Shown piece by piece: positions 3,391-57,000 of a stretch of 64,000 nt of DNA. The stretch is from the NCBI GenBank assembly GCA_025210805.1, contig JAOAQX010000019.1, forward strand, positions 1 to 64,000, in the 5' to 3' direction. How positions within the stretch are numbered: the first letter of the stretch is position 1; every line of letters starts with the position of its first letter. This DNA is from Flavobacteriales bacterium (GTDB taxonomy: Bacteria > Bacteroidota > Bacteroidia > Flavobacteriales > CAJXXR01). Position numbers and translations under genes: made by a program. The notes under the pieces are model-generated. The model was not told the DNA's origin. It searched no databases and saw nothing but the letters and a program-made list of their open reading frames with translations.

Positions 3391-3425
3391 GTTTATATTT
3401 TTTTGATAAAGATAGTATTATATAC

Positions 3426-14168: not shown

Positions 14169-14315
14169 TCAATCGCAAGATTTGAAATAATTATATTTTT
14201 CAATGTCAATAACGGTGCATCCTGTAATACTCTTCTCAATTTCTATGTGAAAATTTATATAATCATCTTCAGAAATATCATCTTCAGAAACTAATTTAAG
14301 TAGTATTACCTGCTC
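14169..14315 (-). pseudogene. Possible 3' remnant of a gene
   Basis: On the minus strand an open frame of 48 codons between two stops reads ...LVSEDDISEDDYINFHIE and then IEKSITGCTVIDIEKYNYF, ending in SCD and a stop. The composition looks like real protein, but no start codon fits and its beginning runs into the tail of the lipoprotein gene. It may be the last part of a gene whose front was deleted. I do not recognise the family. Confidence 0.3.
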
Positions 14316-14896
14316 TCATTTAAAGTTTCTAATTCTGCTTTCATGCGTTTTCCACAATTAGTTAATTCTTCAATCATTTTAGGGTCTGTTTTTGTTGAAA
14401 TTATTTTGTTACTAGCTATTTTTTGGAATACGTTTTTGTCTCCAAAAGTAATTTTATAGATCGTATCAGAATAGGTCATTTTATTTGGATCAAATTCAAA
14501 TTTTTCATGAGGATATTTTTTGTCGTATTTTCTCCATTGTGCAAAATACTGTCTGTACTTTATTTTAAGTATTTTGTTTCCACTCCAATATACTTTTTTA
14601 CTTGAGAATCCTAATTCTGCATTATATTTTGAGTCAATTAGTTTTAATTCATTATTGTAATAATATCCAGTAACACCGCCGCCACAGGTCGACATACTTG
14701 GATATGATTTTTTAAGTAGGATTCCGTTTTCAAAAAGTGAGTCAATTTCATTTACAATAAAATTGGCTGATTTTTGTTTTAGATTATTCTTTTCAACCAA
14801 ATCAGGTTTTAGTTCAACAAATTCTTTCTTTTCATTTCTACATGAAGAAAAAATACTTAAAGCAATTGATATGCCTGCAAAAAAAAGCGTTCTCAT
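14306..14896 (-). CDS. Hypothetical lipoprotein
   Basis: 196 residues from the preferred start MRTLFFAGISIALS, giving a lipoprotein signal with Cys19 (IFSSC). A longer reading from 15010 would place this signal internally, so it is rejected. The rest is mixed polar sequence with a CGGGVTGYYYNNE segment near residue 70; no known family recognised. Its ATG overlaps the stop of the upstream membrane protein gene by four bases, so the two are co-translated and may act together. Confidence 0.65.
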   Translation of the reverse strand: MRTLFFAGISIALSIFSSCRNEKKEFVELKPDLVEKNNLKQKSANFIVNEIDSLFENGILLKKSYPSMSTCGGGVTGYYYNNELKLIDSKYNAELGFSSKKVYWSGNKILKIKYRQYFAQWRKYDKKYPHEKFEFDPNKMTYSDTIYKITFGDKNVFQKIASNKIISTKTDPKMIEELTNCGKRMKAELETLNESR

Positions 14897-17687: not shown

Positions 17688-18601
17688 TAAAAAATAAATT
17701 TTGAACCTTCTGTTGCTAGTTCAGTATTTTCAAAAACCGTTTGAGCTTCTGCTTTATGCGGTTCTAGGTCATAATATCTTGAAGAAAAATGTCCAATTAG
17801 AAGTTTTTGAGCACTCGACATTTTTGCTATTTCACCAGCTTGTTTTGCAGTAGAATGCTTGGTTTCGAAAGCCCTCTTTTCTAGATCATGTAAAAACGTA
17901 GCTTCATGATAAAGCATAACTACATCCTGAATTAGAGGTACAATCTCAGGTTTATATACTGTGTCTGAGCAGTAGGCGTAAGATGAAGGTTTGTCGGGAT
18001 CTAATGTAAGTTCTTTGTTGGTGATGATTTCCCCGTTTTCCATTTCAAAATCGGCTCCTTTTTTTATGGCTCTTCTGGCATAAATGGGAATCTCAAAATC
18101 TCTCAAAGCTTTGGGATTAAGTTTTCTTTCGCCTATTTTTTCTCGAAAAATAAAGCCTGTTGTTTCTATTCTATGTTCTAAAGGAAAGCTTTGGATACTA
18201 ATAGATTCATCTTCAAACAGTGTTTGTGGTGTTTTTGGGTCGGTAGGGAAAAAATGCAGAGGAAAAGACCATTGAACTCTCGATACTTTTTTTTGTAAAT
18301 CCAATAAAGCTTCTAAGTCTTTGGGTGCATATAGTTCTACCGCTTTGGTTCTATTGTTGAGACTCATGGTACTGAGGAGTCCAAATAAACCTAAATAATG
18401 ATCTCCATGAAGATGGGAAATGAAAATTTTGTCAATTTTTTGAAAACTGAGCTTATATCGCCTCATTTGGGATTGAGAGCCTTCGCCACAATCTATTAAG
18501 AATGTTTTGTTTCGGAATTTTAAAATCTGTCCTGATGGGTTTCTATTAGAAGTGGGTGTGGCAGAGCTGCTTCCTAATATATTGAGTTCAAAAGATTTCA
18601 T
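17687..18601 (-). CDS. rnz: Ribonuclease Z
   Basis: 304 residues, metallo-beta-lactamase fold of the ElaC type. The metal motif HLHGDH is at residues 63-68, later ligands appear in LYHEATF and the end motif LLIGHFSSRYYD. RNase Z trims 3' trailers from tRNA precursors, which fits the tRNA genes in this window that lack an encoded CCA. It is the first gene of a tight three-gene run with the kinase and cyclase. Confidence 0.93.
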   Translation of the reverse strand: MKSFELNILGSSSATPTSNRNPSGQILKFRNKTFLIDCGEGSQSQMRRYKLSFQKIDKIFISHLHGDHYLGLFGLLSTMSLNNRTKAVELYAPKDLEALLDLQKKVSRVQWSFPLHFFPTDPKTPQTLFEDESISIQSFPLEHRIETTGFIFREKIGERKLNPKALRDFEIPIYARRAIKKGADFEMENGEIITNKELTLDPDKPSSYAYCSDTVYKPEIVPLIQDVVMLYHEATFLHDLEKRAFETKHSTAKQAGEIAKMSSAQKLLIGHFSSRYYDLEPHKAEAQTVFENTELATEGSKFIF

Positions 18602-50185: not shown

Positions 50186-52450
50186 TTATTCTCTATAATC
50201 TAGAACACCATTACCGTTAGCGTCTGGATTAATGTATGTATAAGTTCTTATATTGGTATCTCCTGCCGTAATAGAAGTAGGTGTAAATACCCCCGCTGGG
50301 TATCCAAAACCGTCAATGATATCAATTGCATCATCTAATCCATCGCCATCTTTATCCTGTCCTGTAAGTGTTATGCTGTATTCATCAGTATCAGATGTAC
50401 CATCTCCATCAGAATCAGTTGTTAAGAAGTCAGCAAGCCCTATATTATCTGTATCAGGTGCATTGTCAAGACTTAGACCATTGGGTTCAAATGAATCGTC
50501 AAGTCCATTAGGAAATGAAGAGCCTGGACCAAATTCGTCTTTTCCTGAAGGGATAATCGCATTACCAGGCTGTATTTCAAGGATGTTTGGGACTCCGTCA
50601 TTGTCACTATCCAAATCAAGGTTATCTGCAATCATATCTCCATCAGTATCTCCATTAGTAACCTGAATACCAATATCGTCTATGGCTAAATCATTACCCG
50701 CTATGGCTACAGCGGAGTTATCTAAAACTTCAAGATCTAAGGCATCATATGGACCTGTGTTTACAACAACAGAATATTTTAACCAATCTGTACTGTTTAT
50801 TACTCCAATAACCTGTTCTGATATTGTTTGTTCTGGTACAACATTTTTATTAATTAGCTTAATTCTCACATTAGGTTTTGCATATGATGCGTTATCGATG
50901 ATGTTGGCAATATAAAGCGTTATCTGGAGATTGGTATTTTTGGGAAGTCCTGTAAGCGATCTACCATAAAAAGCATCGGTGGTACCTCCAGTTGCATTTA
51001 CAACTAACATGTAACCATTATTATCAAGAGGAGTGTGATCGACATTCGGTACACCCGCTGGAGAGGCTTCCCAAATAGCATTACTAGCACAACTCATACT
51101 TACTTCAACACCATACTCTCCATCAGCTAGACCTACAGCAGTATTTGCAAAAGAATTATCACCATAGTTAGGAGCTGTTAACTGTTTTCTTTTACAAGTA
51201 CCACTTGGTCCTAGAGTACCCGTTCTATTTGCTGTTGCATCACTACCGAAATCATCTGTCAACTGAAAAGATTTATCTTCGTTGGCATCAAGAATTCCAT
51301 TTGCGTTGTTATCGACTTCTTTTGCATCATCAAGGCCATCTAGATCTCTATCTTCTGGACATGCGTTTAGGGTTGCTCTCCATTCATGCCCATTGTATAG
51401 GAAAATAGAACCTCCATCAATACAGCAGTTAATACAATAAATTAATTGGCCTCCTGTAGGTGAAGGGATATCAAACATTTGAGTTTTCGTTAGTCTTGGT
51501 AATAGAAACGCTTTGTCTGTTGTGTTTAGGTCTAATAAAGAAGACACATGGGGAGAAGATGTTCCAATACCTACTTGATTCATGCTTCCGTTAATAAAAA
51601 GCGTTCCAGTATCGATGTCTATATTATCGGTAACAGTTATATCAACATCAGCAGGAGTTGTTCCATCACCAGTATAGATACTTTCGGATTTGGCTGCTTC
51701 ACCACTTTCTGATATAAGATACCAACTTGGTCTATTGGTTCCAAGATTTATTAAAGCGAATATGGCACTAGAGCTACCAGGTAATACATAGTCTGCTTCC
51801 GATCCAGAAAGGTTTCCTTTTGCTATGGTTCCACGTATTGTAATTTCTGCTGAAGCATCATTCCTAATAATTATAATTTTACCAATATTAGAGACAGTTG
51901 CTATTGAATGAACCGGTGGCTTAAATCTAATAATGGGTGCGTAATTTCCATTAAATGAAGCTAAAAGACTGGTCTCTCTCATGTCGACACATGCTGCACC
52001 TAATGGAACACCGCCGTTTCCAGCGCTTAAATCAGCATCTCCAATGAAAAGGGAATCAATACCTGAAGGTACATTTTTTTGATTGGTTCCAAGGTTAAAC
52101 ATTGGACTTGTTGGTGATGAACTTTCTGGTACAGCATTAGATTGTTGTATCCATTTTAAACCATTCCAAACATAGTATCCTTTTACGATTCTGTTTTCAT
52201 CTACTCCAGTATTTGCCGTATTATATACCATAAGTCCTTCATCTGTTGCTGTCAGAGGAACCCCAGCGTTATTTACTGTTGTGTTGTCGTTGAGACCAGT
52301 TAAAGCTACTTTTGGTGGCATAAACCCTCTGTTTGTAGCACTTAGTTGAAGAATGGACGAGCCTTGAGGCGCTGTTGTTCCGATACCAACCTGAGCATTT
52401 AGAGGTAAAGAAACTAAAGCTATTAAGGCAAGTTTTAATAATTGTATCAT
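50186..52450 (-). CDS. Secreted VGIGT-repeat protein with calcium-binding (TSP type 3-like) repeats
   Basis: 754 residues from MIQLLKLALIALVSLPLNAQ (signal peptide). Two VGIGTTAP-type units (about 20-45 and 290-320) resemble repeats in Bacteroidota surface proteins with tail-fibre-like folds. A central beta domain is followed by Asp-rich repeats such as DRDLDGLDDAKE, DSDNDGVPNILE and DKDGDGLDDAID, likely to bind calcium. The protein ends NPDANGNGVLDYRE with no visible T9SS tail, which is odd for this class. A well-spaced promoter lies 42 bases upstream and a terminator follows. Paralogue of the broken gene at 52.9-54.6 kb. Confidence 0.75.
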   Translation of the reverse strand: MIQLLKLALIALVSLPLNAQVGIGTTAPQGSSILQLSATNRGFMPPKVALTGLNDNTTVNNAGVPLTATDEGLMVYNTANTGVDENRIVKGYYVWNGLKWIQQSNAVPESSSPTSPMFNLGTNQKNVPSGIDSLFIGDADLSAGNGGVPLGAACVDMRETSLLASFNGNYAPIIRFKPPVHSIATVSNIGKIIIIRNDASAEITIRGTIAKGNLSGSEADYVLPGSSSAIFALINLGTNRPSWYLISESGEAAKSESIYTGDGTTPADVDITVTDNIDIDTGTLFINGSMNQVGIGTSSPHVSSLLDLNTTDKAFLLPRLTKTQMFDIPSPTGGQLIYCINCCIDGGSIFLYNGHEWRATLNACPEDRDLDGLDDAKEVDNNANGILDANEDKSFQLTDDFGSDATANRTGTLGPSGTCKRKQLTAPNYGDNSFANTAVGLADGEYGVEVSMSCASNAIWEASPAGVPNVDHTPLDNNGYMLVVNATGGTTDAFYGRSLTGLPKNTNLQITLYIANIIDNASYAKPNVRIKLINKNVVPEQTISEQVIGVINSTDWLKYSVVVNTGPYDALDLEVLDNSAVAIAGNDLAIDDIGIQVTNGDTDGDMIADNLDLDSDNDGVPNILEIQPGNAIIPSGKDEFGPGSSFPNGLDDSFEPNGLSLDNAPDTDNIGLADFLTTDSDGDGTSDTDEYSITLTGQDKDGDGLDDAIDIIDGFGYPAGVFTPTSITAGDTNIRTYTYINPDANGNGVLDYRE

Positions 52451-52491
52451 ATTTAAAGTTTTTTGTAATGATAAAGATTTAATAATCACCA

Positions 52492-52521
52492 CAAATATAA
52501 AAATAAACTGTATTATAACAA
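52492..52521 (-). promoter_or_regulatory. Promoter of the TSP3-repeat gene
   Basis: On the minus strand TTG (52521-52519), 19-base spacer, TATATTTG (52499-52492): a full match to the Bacteroidota promoter consensus. The GTG that would extend the gene lies inside it and is rejected. Confidence 0.75.
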
Positions 52522-52775
52522 TTTATTTTTTAAAAAAATACACTTTTATCTATACTTTTAGTTTGTTTACCTTATTATTTCGTTGTTTCATCTATAGAAA
52601 AAGACTTGAGGTAATGTGTTTTTAGAGAGAACCTCAACAAAGTAAATGATAAATCATATGAGGGATTTTTATGGTTGTTGCTTACTTTTTTATACTTTAT
52701 TGATTCAATTACCAAAAATTGACACGATATAGAATATTCATTCTTGAATAGATATTACATAATATTATCACGAAT
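52522..52775. other. AT-rich intergenic region
   Basis: Between the promoter of the TSP3 gene and the terminator of the next gene. No coding frame, RNA fold or repeat that I can support. Confidence 0.5.
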
Positions 52776-52815
52776 CAAAAAAAAGGTAACTATAAATTGA
52801 TCATAGCTACCCTTT
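52774..52815 (-). terminator. Probable terminator after the broken VGIGT gene
   Basis: AAAGGTAACTAT pairs imperfectly with ATAGCTACCCTTT, nine-base loop, then eight T on the minus strand. Confidence 0.6.
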
Positions 52816-52881
52816 GAATAAATTTTCACCTAAAAAAAATCGATATCCTAAATTTAGGAGTTTAAAATATAGGTTCTACGA

Positions 52882-54600
52882 CTAAATTACATTTACATTG
52901 ATCGTTCTTGAAGTAGCTCCTAATACAACATTAAATGTAGCAGTACCTGAACCACTCGCTGTACCATAGATTGTAAATGTCAAATTAGTTCTAAAGGCAC
53001 TATTATAAAGCCCAAACTCATCTAGACGCATGGTTAAGCCAGTAACACCAGTAGAGTTAAATGTTTTTGCTTGAGGAATATGCCCTGTACTGCTTGCAGG
53101 AGTGTGAGGCCATTCAAAAGAAGAATTAACAGCACCATTTACATCTCTTGTCACACTTATATTGGAAGGGGAGGCACTCATTCCAGCAGCATTTCCTTCT
53201 GGGTGAATTGTTAATGTTACAGTTATTGTATTTGAGTTTGCTACTTGTACATTAAATGTCGCATTACCTGCATTTTGAGGAATTCCAGCAGCAAACCCTC
53301 TTATACTCCCAGAACCTGCACTTGTACCAGAAGGGAAATGTAAACCTATTCCTGCGCAAGGAGCACCACAAGTGGTGGTAGGAGTTGCATTAATTTGTGG
53401 CCAAGATGAGTTAGGAGTTGCATTATTAAATGGAACACGAATGATATACCCAAGCGTACTACCATTTACGACTAAATTATCAGAACCACCTACAACGTGT
53501 CCATGATGATAAGGTCATGGTCTGTAAAGGTAGAATTGAATTCGTTAATTCCTTCCAACCACCAGTTCCAAGGTTAACCACTTTCATAACTCCATGGGGT
53601 CTAATAGAAAAAAGGCTTGGTGCTCCAGTAGAGCCTTCATATGAAGCTTGAACACAACGACAGGAATCGAAAAATTTGTTCTATTCATAACAGTAATCAC
53701 CTTACCCTTGTACTCTTGTGTGTTTAAACTATTTTCAAATAAAAGCAACCTCGGATTGTTTAAGCCAGAGATATCTATAACTGATAAATCTCTAAAATCG
53801 ACTCGGTCACAAATGATATTTGAGTTTAAAGTGAAGTAGGCATTATTATAAGTAATGGCATTCGCTGCATTAGAGTTTCCTATTGCCAAACCTTTCGTAT
53901 TACCCGAAGTAACGAAAAAGTCTCGCCCAACAAAGTCTGTTGATTTAGTTGGAGATTTTCCTTCTTGAGGATGTTGAATTTGTCTCCAAATAGCACCATC
54001 ATAATAAACAAATCCTTGCGGAAGCTGAGTCGCTTCTGTTGTGACGTTGTTCGTATTATAAACCATTAAACCTATTTGAGGATTCGAAATGGTTGTTATA
54101 TCATTATTTCCGTTTAAAGAAACCCTAGGAATTAAAATACCTTTATTTGATGATGAAATATCCAAAGCAGCAGCAGCATTTGGGGAAGAGGTTCCAATAC
54201 CTACATTACTATTCTGACCATGAACAACTAAACTGTTGTCTGTTCCATCAAAAATAAGATTATTATTTCCTTGGCTTACAGTTCTATTTCCTGTAAGAGT
54301 ACCATCTGTATTGAATAAGTTTTCAGAAGAACCTCCCAACGGTTGCCACACACTCCCGTCCCAAAAATAGAAACCAATATCTGTAAAAGTAGCGTCTGTA
54401 TTGGTTACAAAAACGAGTTCTCCAACATCTTTATCAGCAATTGCATTTGCTTGTGCCACGGTCATTCTTGGTGTTAGTATTCCTTGAGTAGTCGAGTTGA
54501 TGTCAAGAATTCCTTTTGGTGAAGTAGTCCCAATACCTACTTGTGCTATTAAGCTATAAGTGAATAAATAAATTAGGAAAAAGGTAAAAAGTCTGTTCAT
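52882..54600 (-). pseudogene. Frameshifted secreted VGIGT-repeat protein
   Basis: The front reads openly from 54600 with signal peptide (LIYLFTYSLIAQ) and VGIGTTSP and VGIGTSSP repeats; the back reads in the same frame down to a stop at 52882. Between about 53.50 and 53.66 kb the frame is lost and regained. The paralogous stretch VMNRTNFSIPVVV should continue VQASYEGSTGAPSLF, which lies in the next frame, followed by NLGTGGWKEL. A second shift near 53545 gives EFNSTFTDHDL, and a third near 53510 returns to the original frame at HHGHVVGGSDN. Three one-base losses explain it. Without them the protein would be about 573 residues, secreted and lacking a clear T9SS tail. Either a pseudogene or local sequence error. 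Confidence 0.75.
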
Positions 54601-54832
54601 ATTTTTTCAGTTTATTTAGTTTTAAAATTCCTAAAAATCCGGTCAAATATATAGATAAAAGATATACCTTGTTATGCATTAAAGAGTTTGATTTTTTTTA
54701 CTAATTTTTCCTAAGTTTAAATGAATGTTTTTTTATAAATACAAATCTCTATTTCAGGTATTTGTAATGTTTTACTCAGGTAAAAAAAAACGATATTTTT
54801 TTATAGTTATAACATCAAAATAAAGCTAAAAA
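54601..54832. other. Intergenic region between feoB and the broken VGIGT gene
   Basis: Holds the probable promoter element of the broken gene near its left edge (54644-54651) and the candidate feoB 3' hairpin at its right; the middle is AT-rich with nothing else recognised. Confidence 0.5.
54644..54651 (-). promoter_or_regulatory. -7 promoter element for the broken VGIGT gene
   Basis: Reads TATATTTG on the minus strand, about 45 bases upstream of the start. Confidence 0.55.
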
Positions 54833-54887
54833 GATTGCGTTATTACGTGTCGTTTTTTAATTCTTCAGAGGGGTATTTTAACGCAAT
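54829..54887 (-). terminator. Possible large-loop terminator after feoB
   Basis: ATTGCGTT and AACGCAAT form an 8-bp stem with a 38-base loop, and the minus strand continues CTTTTTAGC. The loop is unusually long, so the call is weak. Confidence 0.35.
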
Positions 54888-54906
54888 TTTAAAGTTTTAC
54901 AAAAAA

Positions 54907-57000
54907 CTATTTATTCAATATCACAAAGGTTGCCCAAGCTAAAAAATACGCCATTCCAGTCATGACAGCTACTTGTAGAAGGGGCCACTTCCAGCTTTGT
55001 GTTTCTCTTTTTACAACTGCTAAAGTTCCTATACACTGCATGGCCAAAACATAAAAAACAAGTAGTGCCCAGGTGGTAGCAGGGGTGAAAATAGGTTTTC
55101 CAATGCTGTTTTTGCTATTGAGTAGTTTTGTTTTTAAAGTGTTTTCTTCGGCATCTTCACCGATACTGTTAATGGTTGCCATGGTAGAAACAAATACCTC
55201 TCGAGCGGCAAAAGAAGTAACCAGTGCAATCCCTATTTTCCAATCAAAACCGAGGGGTTTTATAGCAGGTTCTATCGTCTTTCCGACAATTCCAGCATAG
55301 GACACTTCAAGTTTTTTTGAAGCGATTAGATTATCCGTATCTTGTTCATTTAGGTTCTTCTCCATTGCTTCTTGTTGTGCTTCTTGCTGTGCTATATCCA
55401 TTTTTTCTTGAGGTCCATAGCTAGATAAAAACCAGATCACAACACTCAGAATCATAATAATTTTACCAGCATCTATCACAAAAGACATGACTTTTTCTTT
55501 GGCACTCAATAAAACATTCGTCCAGTTTGGATTTTTGTAGGAAGGCAGTTCAAGAACCAGATAACTTTTAGAACTTTCTTTTAAAATCCATTTTAAAATG
55601 ATCGAAACAAGAAGGGCAGCAACAATTCCAAGAAGATATAATCCAAAAAATGCCAGACCTTGCAGATTAATAAATCCAAAATAATATACAGGTTCTACAA
55701 TCATTCCGATGAGTAGAACGTACACAGGGATTCTGGCTGAGCAACTCATAAAAGGGGTTACAAAAATGGTAATCAGTCTTTCTTTAGGGTTTTTGATGGT
55801 ACGAGCCGACATGATGGCAGGAATTGCACATGCAGAACCCGAAATAAGTGCAATAATACTTCTACCATTAAGTCCAAATTTTTGCATCCAACTATCAAAT
55901 AAATATACTGCTCGAGACATATATCCTATTTCTTCTAAAATGGAAAGTAGGACGAAAAGAATAAAAATTTGCGGGATAAAAATAACTACAGAGCCAATAC
56001 CAGCAATAATACCATCGGCAACTAATGTTGATAACCAAGGTGTAGAAATGGCTTCACTGGCCCAATTTCCAAAACTTCCCATAAGTCCATCAATCCAGTC
56101 CATTGGGTAAGCTGCCCACGCAAAAATTGATTGAAAAACAAAGCCCATAATCAAAAAGAAAATAAGAGGTCCAAACCATTTGTGAGTAAGGATTCGGTCT
56201 ATATTTTCACTTTTAGAGCTTTGGTTTGTATTGTTTTTAGTAGGGATGAGATTTTGAAATCCTTGAATTCTGGCTTTTGTTTCTTCCACTTGTTCTAAGA
56301 TGTCCGAAAAAGCTGTTTTTTGTTTTATTTGATCTAATTCTTCAGGAATGGCATTTGGTATCCAATCGTGGTGAAGAAGGAGTTTAATTTGATAGGTTGA
56401 TAAGTTTTGGAAATTTTTAGAAATCGAAAGAATTTCCTTTTCGAGTTCTTTGTTTAATTCATAATGAGAATAGCCGGTAGAGAATTTTTCATTCTTTAAT
56501 GCTTCTCTTAGTTCTGTGAGCCCATTTGAATTTCTTGTTGAACAAAGTATTACAGTAGTACCAAAGTGGTCTTCAACCTTTTTCTTGATGTTTTTTGCAA
56601 AAGTATCCTCAGCTAAGTCAATCATATTGAGGCAAAGAAGCGTGGGGATTTTTAAATCAATAATTTGAGAAAAAAGCAACAACTGTCTTTCTAGATTATT
56701 GATATCTGCCACATAAATTATCGCATCAGGATAAATCTCAGCATTGGGTTGACAAAGTGTTTTGGCTACTTCTCTTTCATCAAAGGAAGTGGGATGAATA
56801 GAATAACTACCAGGTAAATCAATCAGTCTAATTTTTTTATTTCCTAGAGAAAAATGTCCTGATATTTTTTCAACGGTTACTCCAGGGAAATTTCCGACTT
56901 GTTGGTTCAGTCCTGTAAGTGCATTGAAAATAGAAGTTTTACCACTATTTGGGTTTCCTACTAAAGCAATAGTAGGGTTTGAGCTTAGATAACTATTCAT
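54907..57000 (-). CDS. feoB: Ferrous iron transporter FeoB
   Basis: 697 residues. The N-terminal G domain has G1 GNPNSGKTS (15-23), the switch region with NFPGVTVEK, G3 DLPGSYS, and G4 NMID; a helical spacer leads to a membrane domain with paired gate-like segments (SACAIPAIMSARTI and SFAAREVFVSTMATI). FeoB imports Fe2+ driven by nucleotide hydrolysis. The start overlaps the feoA stop by one base. Confidence 0.95.
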   Translation of the reverse strand: MNSYLSSNPTIALVGNPNSGKTSIFNALTGLNQQVGNFPGVTVEKISGHFSLGNKKIRLIDLPGSYSIHPTSFDEREVAKTLCQPNAEIYPDAIIYVADINNLERQLLLFSQIIDLKIPTLLCLNMIDLAEDTFAKNIKKKVEDHFGTTVILCSTRNSNGLTELREALKNEKFSTGYSHYELNKELEKEILSISKNFQNLSTYQIKLLLHHDWIPNAIPEELDQIKQKTAFSDILEQVEETKARIQGFQNLIPTKNNTNQSSKSENIDRILTHKWFGPLIFFLIMGFVFQSIFAWAAYPMDWIDGLMGSFGNWASEAISTPWLSTLVADGIIAGIGSVVIFIPQIFILFVLLSILEEIGYMSRAVYLFDSWMQKFGLNGRSIIALISGSACAIPAIMSARTIKNPKERLITIFVTPFMSCSARIPVYVLLIGMIVEPVYYFGFINLQGLAFFGLYLLGIVAALLVSIILKWILKESSKSYLVLELPSYKNPNWTNVLLSAKEKVMSFVIDAGKIIMILSVVIWFLSSYGPQEKMDIAQQEAQQEAMEKNLNEQDTDNLIASKKLEVSYAGIVGKTIEPAIKPLGFDWKIGIALVTSFAAREVFVSTMATINSIGEDAEENTLKTKLLNSKNSIGKPIFTPATTWALLVFYVLAMQCIGTLAVVKRETQSWKWPLLQVAVMTGMAYFLAWATFVILNK

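Follow-up and report, generated by a model that had tools for sequence, protein, structure and literature searches.

Loss and Return of the Reading Frame within a VGIGT-Head Gene of a Draft Flavobacteriales Genome

Introduction

The closest described systems to the locus reported here are the interrupted coding sequences (ICDS) resequenced in Mycobacterium smegmatis. They are gene pieces lying in different frames, brought about either by authentic mutation or by sequencing error; resequencing assigned 28 of 73 to sequencing errors and found others authentic (PMC1852416). The gene described below is likewise divided into pieces in different frames. It differs in returning to its starting frame after only about 150 bases, and it was judged from the assembled sequence alone.

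The gene lies on the reverse strand of a stretch of 64,000 nucleotides (positions 1 to 64,000 of contig JAOAQX010000019.1, hereafter the window) in a draft Flavobacteriales genome of 3,124,445 bases in 34 contigs. It shares a hydrophobic N-terminal stretch and a VGIGT-type head with paralogues in its own genome and with relatives in G004, G006, G030, G039, and other genomes. A tail domain is common to this gene, to an open reading frame (ORF) of 809 aa in G004, and to one of 540 aa on contig C32 of its own genome. Most of the other VGIGT-head matches fall within open frames at least 200 aa long, whereas this copy is broken. We infer that the proteins of the family are probably exported.

Architecture of the Gene and of the Frame Break

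The gene starts at an ATG at 54600 (−) and its head (53657..54600, −) runs in a single frame, frame 0, down to about 53657. According to the ORF list and the codon score, this part holds two VGIGT-type units along with a hydrophobic N-terminal stretch and a portion of one more domain. Frame 0 is left near 53655 and resumed by about 53505, leaving about 150 bases out of frame (53505..53655, −; three-frame display, frame scores, posterior decoding, and stop list). Within this gap, the stop list places frame 0 stops at 53586, 53547, and 53517; the TGA at 53584..53586 (−) terminates the reading from the gene's own start in both the ORF list and the three-frame display. The product of the sequence as given has 338 aa, the last 22 or so of which are out of frame. 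The tail (52882..53514, −), located by codon scores, comprises about 210 codons, open in frame 0 from 53514 to a stop codon at 52882.

The training set for the codon statistics was the window plus 20 further stretches of this genome. Over the head (54600-53657), frame 0 scores +50.9 (314 codons, no stops), as against −21.7 and −54.3 for the other frames. Over 53513-53182 it scores +24.7, with no stops and no usual start (others −5.2 and −39.8, 9 stops each), and over 53181-52885 it scores +17.5, again with no stops. Across the head and both tail segments, the frames other than 0 have negative scores and 9 to 28 stops each. Inside the gap, the codon score of frame 2 is normal (+5.6 over 37 codons), and this frame has no stops from 53680 to 53483, that is, over the entire interval between the two frame 0 parts; frame 1 is open only over 53573-53493. 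A coding gene is broken at this place, beyond chance. That the gene exits its frame near 53655 and later regains it had been proposed in a sequence-only reading of the window, and the ORF list, the three-frame display, the frame scores, and posterior decoding agree on it.

In the sequence as given the tail would go untranslated, and the regained frame gives no rescue of translation. The first ATG, GTG, or TTG in the tail frame lies at 53181, 110 codons in; because none precedes it, these first 110 codons could code only if they continue the upstream gene. The lack of an earlier start, the strong coding signal, and the joining of head and tail in relatives rule out the tail as an independent gene. 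A compensatory mutation that restores the protein is ruled out as well: three stops persist in frame 0, and selection for compensation therefore does not explain the return of the frame. The best reading is an ordinary interrupted coding sequence, in which one gene is split by a frame change or stop, its pieces are joined in relatives, and the second piece has no nearby start of its own. The meaning of the locus is mainly cautionary, since gene calling would yield a truncated protein of 338 aa and a spurious one of 99 aa where relatives have one gene.

Relatives of the Head, Tail, and Middle Domain

The VGIGT-type head has relatives in 9 of the 40 genomes searched; for the tail, 395 genomes of the order yielded 11 with a relative. 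Both counts include the gene's own genome. Six loci were compared, and in three of them head and tail lie in one open frame: the 809-aa ORF of another species (L028, in G004), a 410-aa ORF of another species (L029), and the 540-aa ORF on C32 of the same genome (L040), whose head match is at C32:109179. Head and tail therefore belong together. The remaining three loci (L003, L012, and L006) were retrieved through their head matches, and only the head was aligned with them. The tail domain matches several successive places in the 809-aa ORF (G004:C1:1077497-1078957).

Among 395 genomes of the order, three matched the middle domain: its own and, weakly, two others (L023 and L024). On alignment the latter two were rejected as relatives; they resemble a low-molecular-weight phosphatase and a methionine-synthase-type enzyme. 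Except, weakly, for the neighboring paralogue, no relative of the middle domain was found. The other genome of the family examined (G001, 83% complete) has no match to head, middle, or tail. A scan of genome contigs with the gene, from which its own or a very near genome was possibly left out, gave 11 pattern matches and no confirmed one; with the neighboring FeoB-like protein, 80 of 81 loci were kept, the best full-length match having 52% identity and short partial ones up to 62%. A pattern scan of viral contigs gave no matches. In Pfam, nothing was found for the tail or the paralogue at E up to 0.1, and the head gave one sub-threshold match, RPA43_OB (E 0.0049, below its cut-off). A comparison with orthologues, run as a check, found none that could show variation.

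Two Frame Changes or Three

The sequence-only reading had described three one-base losses, at the exit, near 53545, and at the return. The exit and the return stand, the middle change is not established, and two changes suffice and are favored. As frame 2 is stop-free over the gap, one departure and one return are enough, and a third leg in frame 1 is optional. In a search with the first switch fixed at the two-change optimum, the gain of the best three-change path found over the best one with two changes is 2.7 nats with a general codon model, 1.4 with a codon model of VGIGT genes, and 2.0 with a dicodon model. At per-base switch rates of 0.0001 and 0.001, posterior decoding locates a first switch near 53655 and a second near 53490-53519, and it expects 0.00 to 0.19 switches from frame 2 to frame 1; only the extreme rate of 0.01 per base raises this expectation to 0.63 to 0.83. 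An earlier frame decoder saw no switch anywhere at a frameshift cost of 14, and at a cost of 6 it gave 30 switches in the window, most of which were taken as boundaries of neighboring genes without individual check.

For calibration, triples and loss/gain pairs spaced much as in the real stretch were planted in 20 of the genome's VGIGT-type genes, which are also the training set of the model (up to 1000 draws; short genes were skipped and trials without a frame 0 stop dropped). The log ratio of three versus two changes is −1.63 for the real stretch. Of the planted triples (n = 984), 1.2% lie at or below this value and 5.6% within 1 unit of it; for the planted pairs (n = 972), the corresponding shares are 77.4% and 57.2%. 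The codon calibration thus favors two opposite-sense changes over three losses, by roughly 10:1. Three changes are not required by the frames and, on the gain in nats, the decoding, and the calibration, their necessity was dropped as unproven. The tally of three events is less secure than it seems at first.

This bears on the argument that three independent events would be odd for ordinary decay. Since the frames are explained no less well by two changes, that argument carries little weight. With uniform placement, the chance of clustering within 150 of the 1716 coding bases is 0.17 for two events and 0.02 for three.

The neighboring VGIGT paralogue (50186..52492, −; 768 aa open frame in the ORF list) matches head residues 128-306 with 32% identity (E 7.7e-14) and had been said to confirm the middle frame. 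Of the three frames, frame 2 of 53656-53546 aligns best with paralogue residues 121-330, and 38 of 1000 shuffles reach its score; for the frame 1 leg, 770 of 1000 do. The joined path after the first break (three frames with X between them) is reached by 21 of 1000 shuffles. The undisputed piece of the head just before the break itself stands at 44 of 1000, which makes the paralogue a blunt ruler of little power. Frame 2 is accordingly mildly supported, and the third leg finds no support of its own.

Error or Young Pseudogene

Most likely, nothing novel lies behind the frame break, which would come from either a sequence error or the recent disruption of a dispensable gene. The leading reading, held tentatively and at just under an even chance, is a local error in the consensus or assembly of the draft genome, through which the gene would lose its frame near 53655 and regain it near 53505. 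It is favored because the lesions lie together in about 150 of the 1716 coding bases, the genome is in draft state, and no wider decay is seen: the score of frame 2 is normal in the gap, and head and tail are free of stops. Furthermore, covariance model searches found no 16S or 23S gene in the 34 contigs, although among 14 control genomes the same searches succeeded in 9 and 10. The earlier suggestion of a low-quality stretch, or one wrongly joined, stays among the favored readings. Against an error, the breaks are not clearly at homopolymers (a T6 at 53613 and a T5 at 53674 flank the likeliest departure), the sampled genome is otherwise clean by a detector of low sensitivity, and an apparent relic of another VGIGT gene occurs on C1.

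The sample covers 453,535 bases, made up of the window and 20 stretches mostly chosen around VGIGT matches rather than at random. A stop-to-stop test, which picked up 111 single and 105 paired breaks out of 300 planted of each kind (about 36%), gave 37 rows at a low threshold and 10 at a higher one, the latter being looked into. Two of the 10 are this gene, and among the other eight no convincing in-gene break was found. From their translations, L046 and L063 on the minus strand look like ordinary adjacent genes. L061, L052, L056, and L063 on the plus strand at 18405 are antisense to longer and better-scoring ORFs, while L063 on the plus strand at 842 and window 14315-14186, whose second pieces are short and weak, stay as candidates. 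The assembly is therefore not generally poor, although the absence of other breaks is moderate evidence only, given the low sensitivity of the detector.

A genuine young pseudogene, in which the frame changes are carried by the organism, follows closely as a serious contender that is itself somewhat short of an even chance. The disruption would concern a dispensable paralogue and be tolerated because the genome has dozens of VGIGT-head genes: 40 VGIGT-head rows were found at about 39 places, this gene included. The clean surroundings also speak for it, as does the C1 relic, which consists of a head only, with an in-frame stop and no recognizable body by eye. Conversely, it would be a coincidence for a second and opposite break to fall within 150 bases of the first while the rest of the 1.7 kb stayed free of lesions (0.17 by proximity alone), and head and tail show neither a stop nor a loss of codon signal. 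Outside the lesion, codon signal and stops give no sign of relaxed constraint, which a young pseudogene need not show. If genuine, the break would be a small example of loss inside an expanded VGIGT-head family.

The genome shows a strong expansion of VGIGT-head genes, which are scattered on many contigs; G001, as noted above, gave no match. The apparent relic at C1:2883-3086 (L147; match row C1:2904-3062) was judged by eye to hold a head some 67 residues long, beginning at C1:2883. Its in-frame stop is at C1:3084, with no recognizable body, again by eye, before the open frame of the next gene at 3393. The relic makes the loss of a VGIGT gene plausible and suggests that real gene loss occurs in the family.

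Hypervariability and Recoding

The sequence-only reading had also considered a hypervariable site in a surface protein. A hypervariable or phase-variable site, at which the stretch repeatedly changes frame or is replaced by cassettes, is improbable. Only the membership in a multi-copy family and the clustering of the changes are in its favor. Phase variation would call for a repeat tract or donor cassettes at the site, and neither was found: there is no short tandem repeat within the gene, the sole tandem array in 52500-55000 being at 54695-54718, upstream of the start; a stretch of 601 bp has one match in the genome, which is its own; and such direct repeats as turned up are either short or diverged. 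Moreover, owing to the stops in frame 0, the present form offers no alternative full-length protein. With no tandem repeat, no second copy of the 601-bp stretch, and no orthologue found, the proposal is unsupported. Even less credence is due to a genuine local hot spot for indels of opposite sense, whereby the cells of a population would have different frame states and full-length or truncated protein. Programmed frameshifting or slippage, in which ribosome or polymerase would follow the frames, finds a T6 run (53613-53608) between the departure and the first stop but is just as far-fetched: recoding would have to occur twice, in opposite senses, inside 150 bases; codon evidence puts the departure ahead of the T6 run; and the three relatives that carry head and tail have both in one frame.

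Elsewhere in the window, a possible short and weak second coding piece of 48 codons without a usual start (14171-14320) directly follows an open frame of 237 codons, and the contig opens with two tandem tRNA-Glu genes (1-188).
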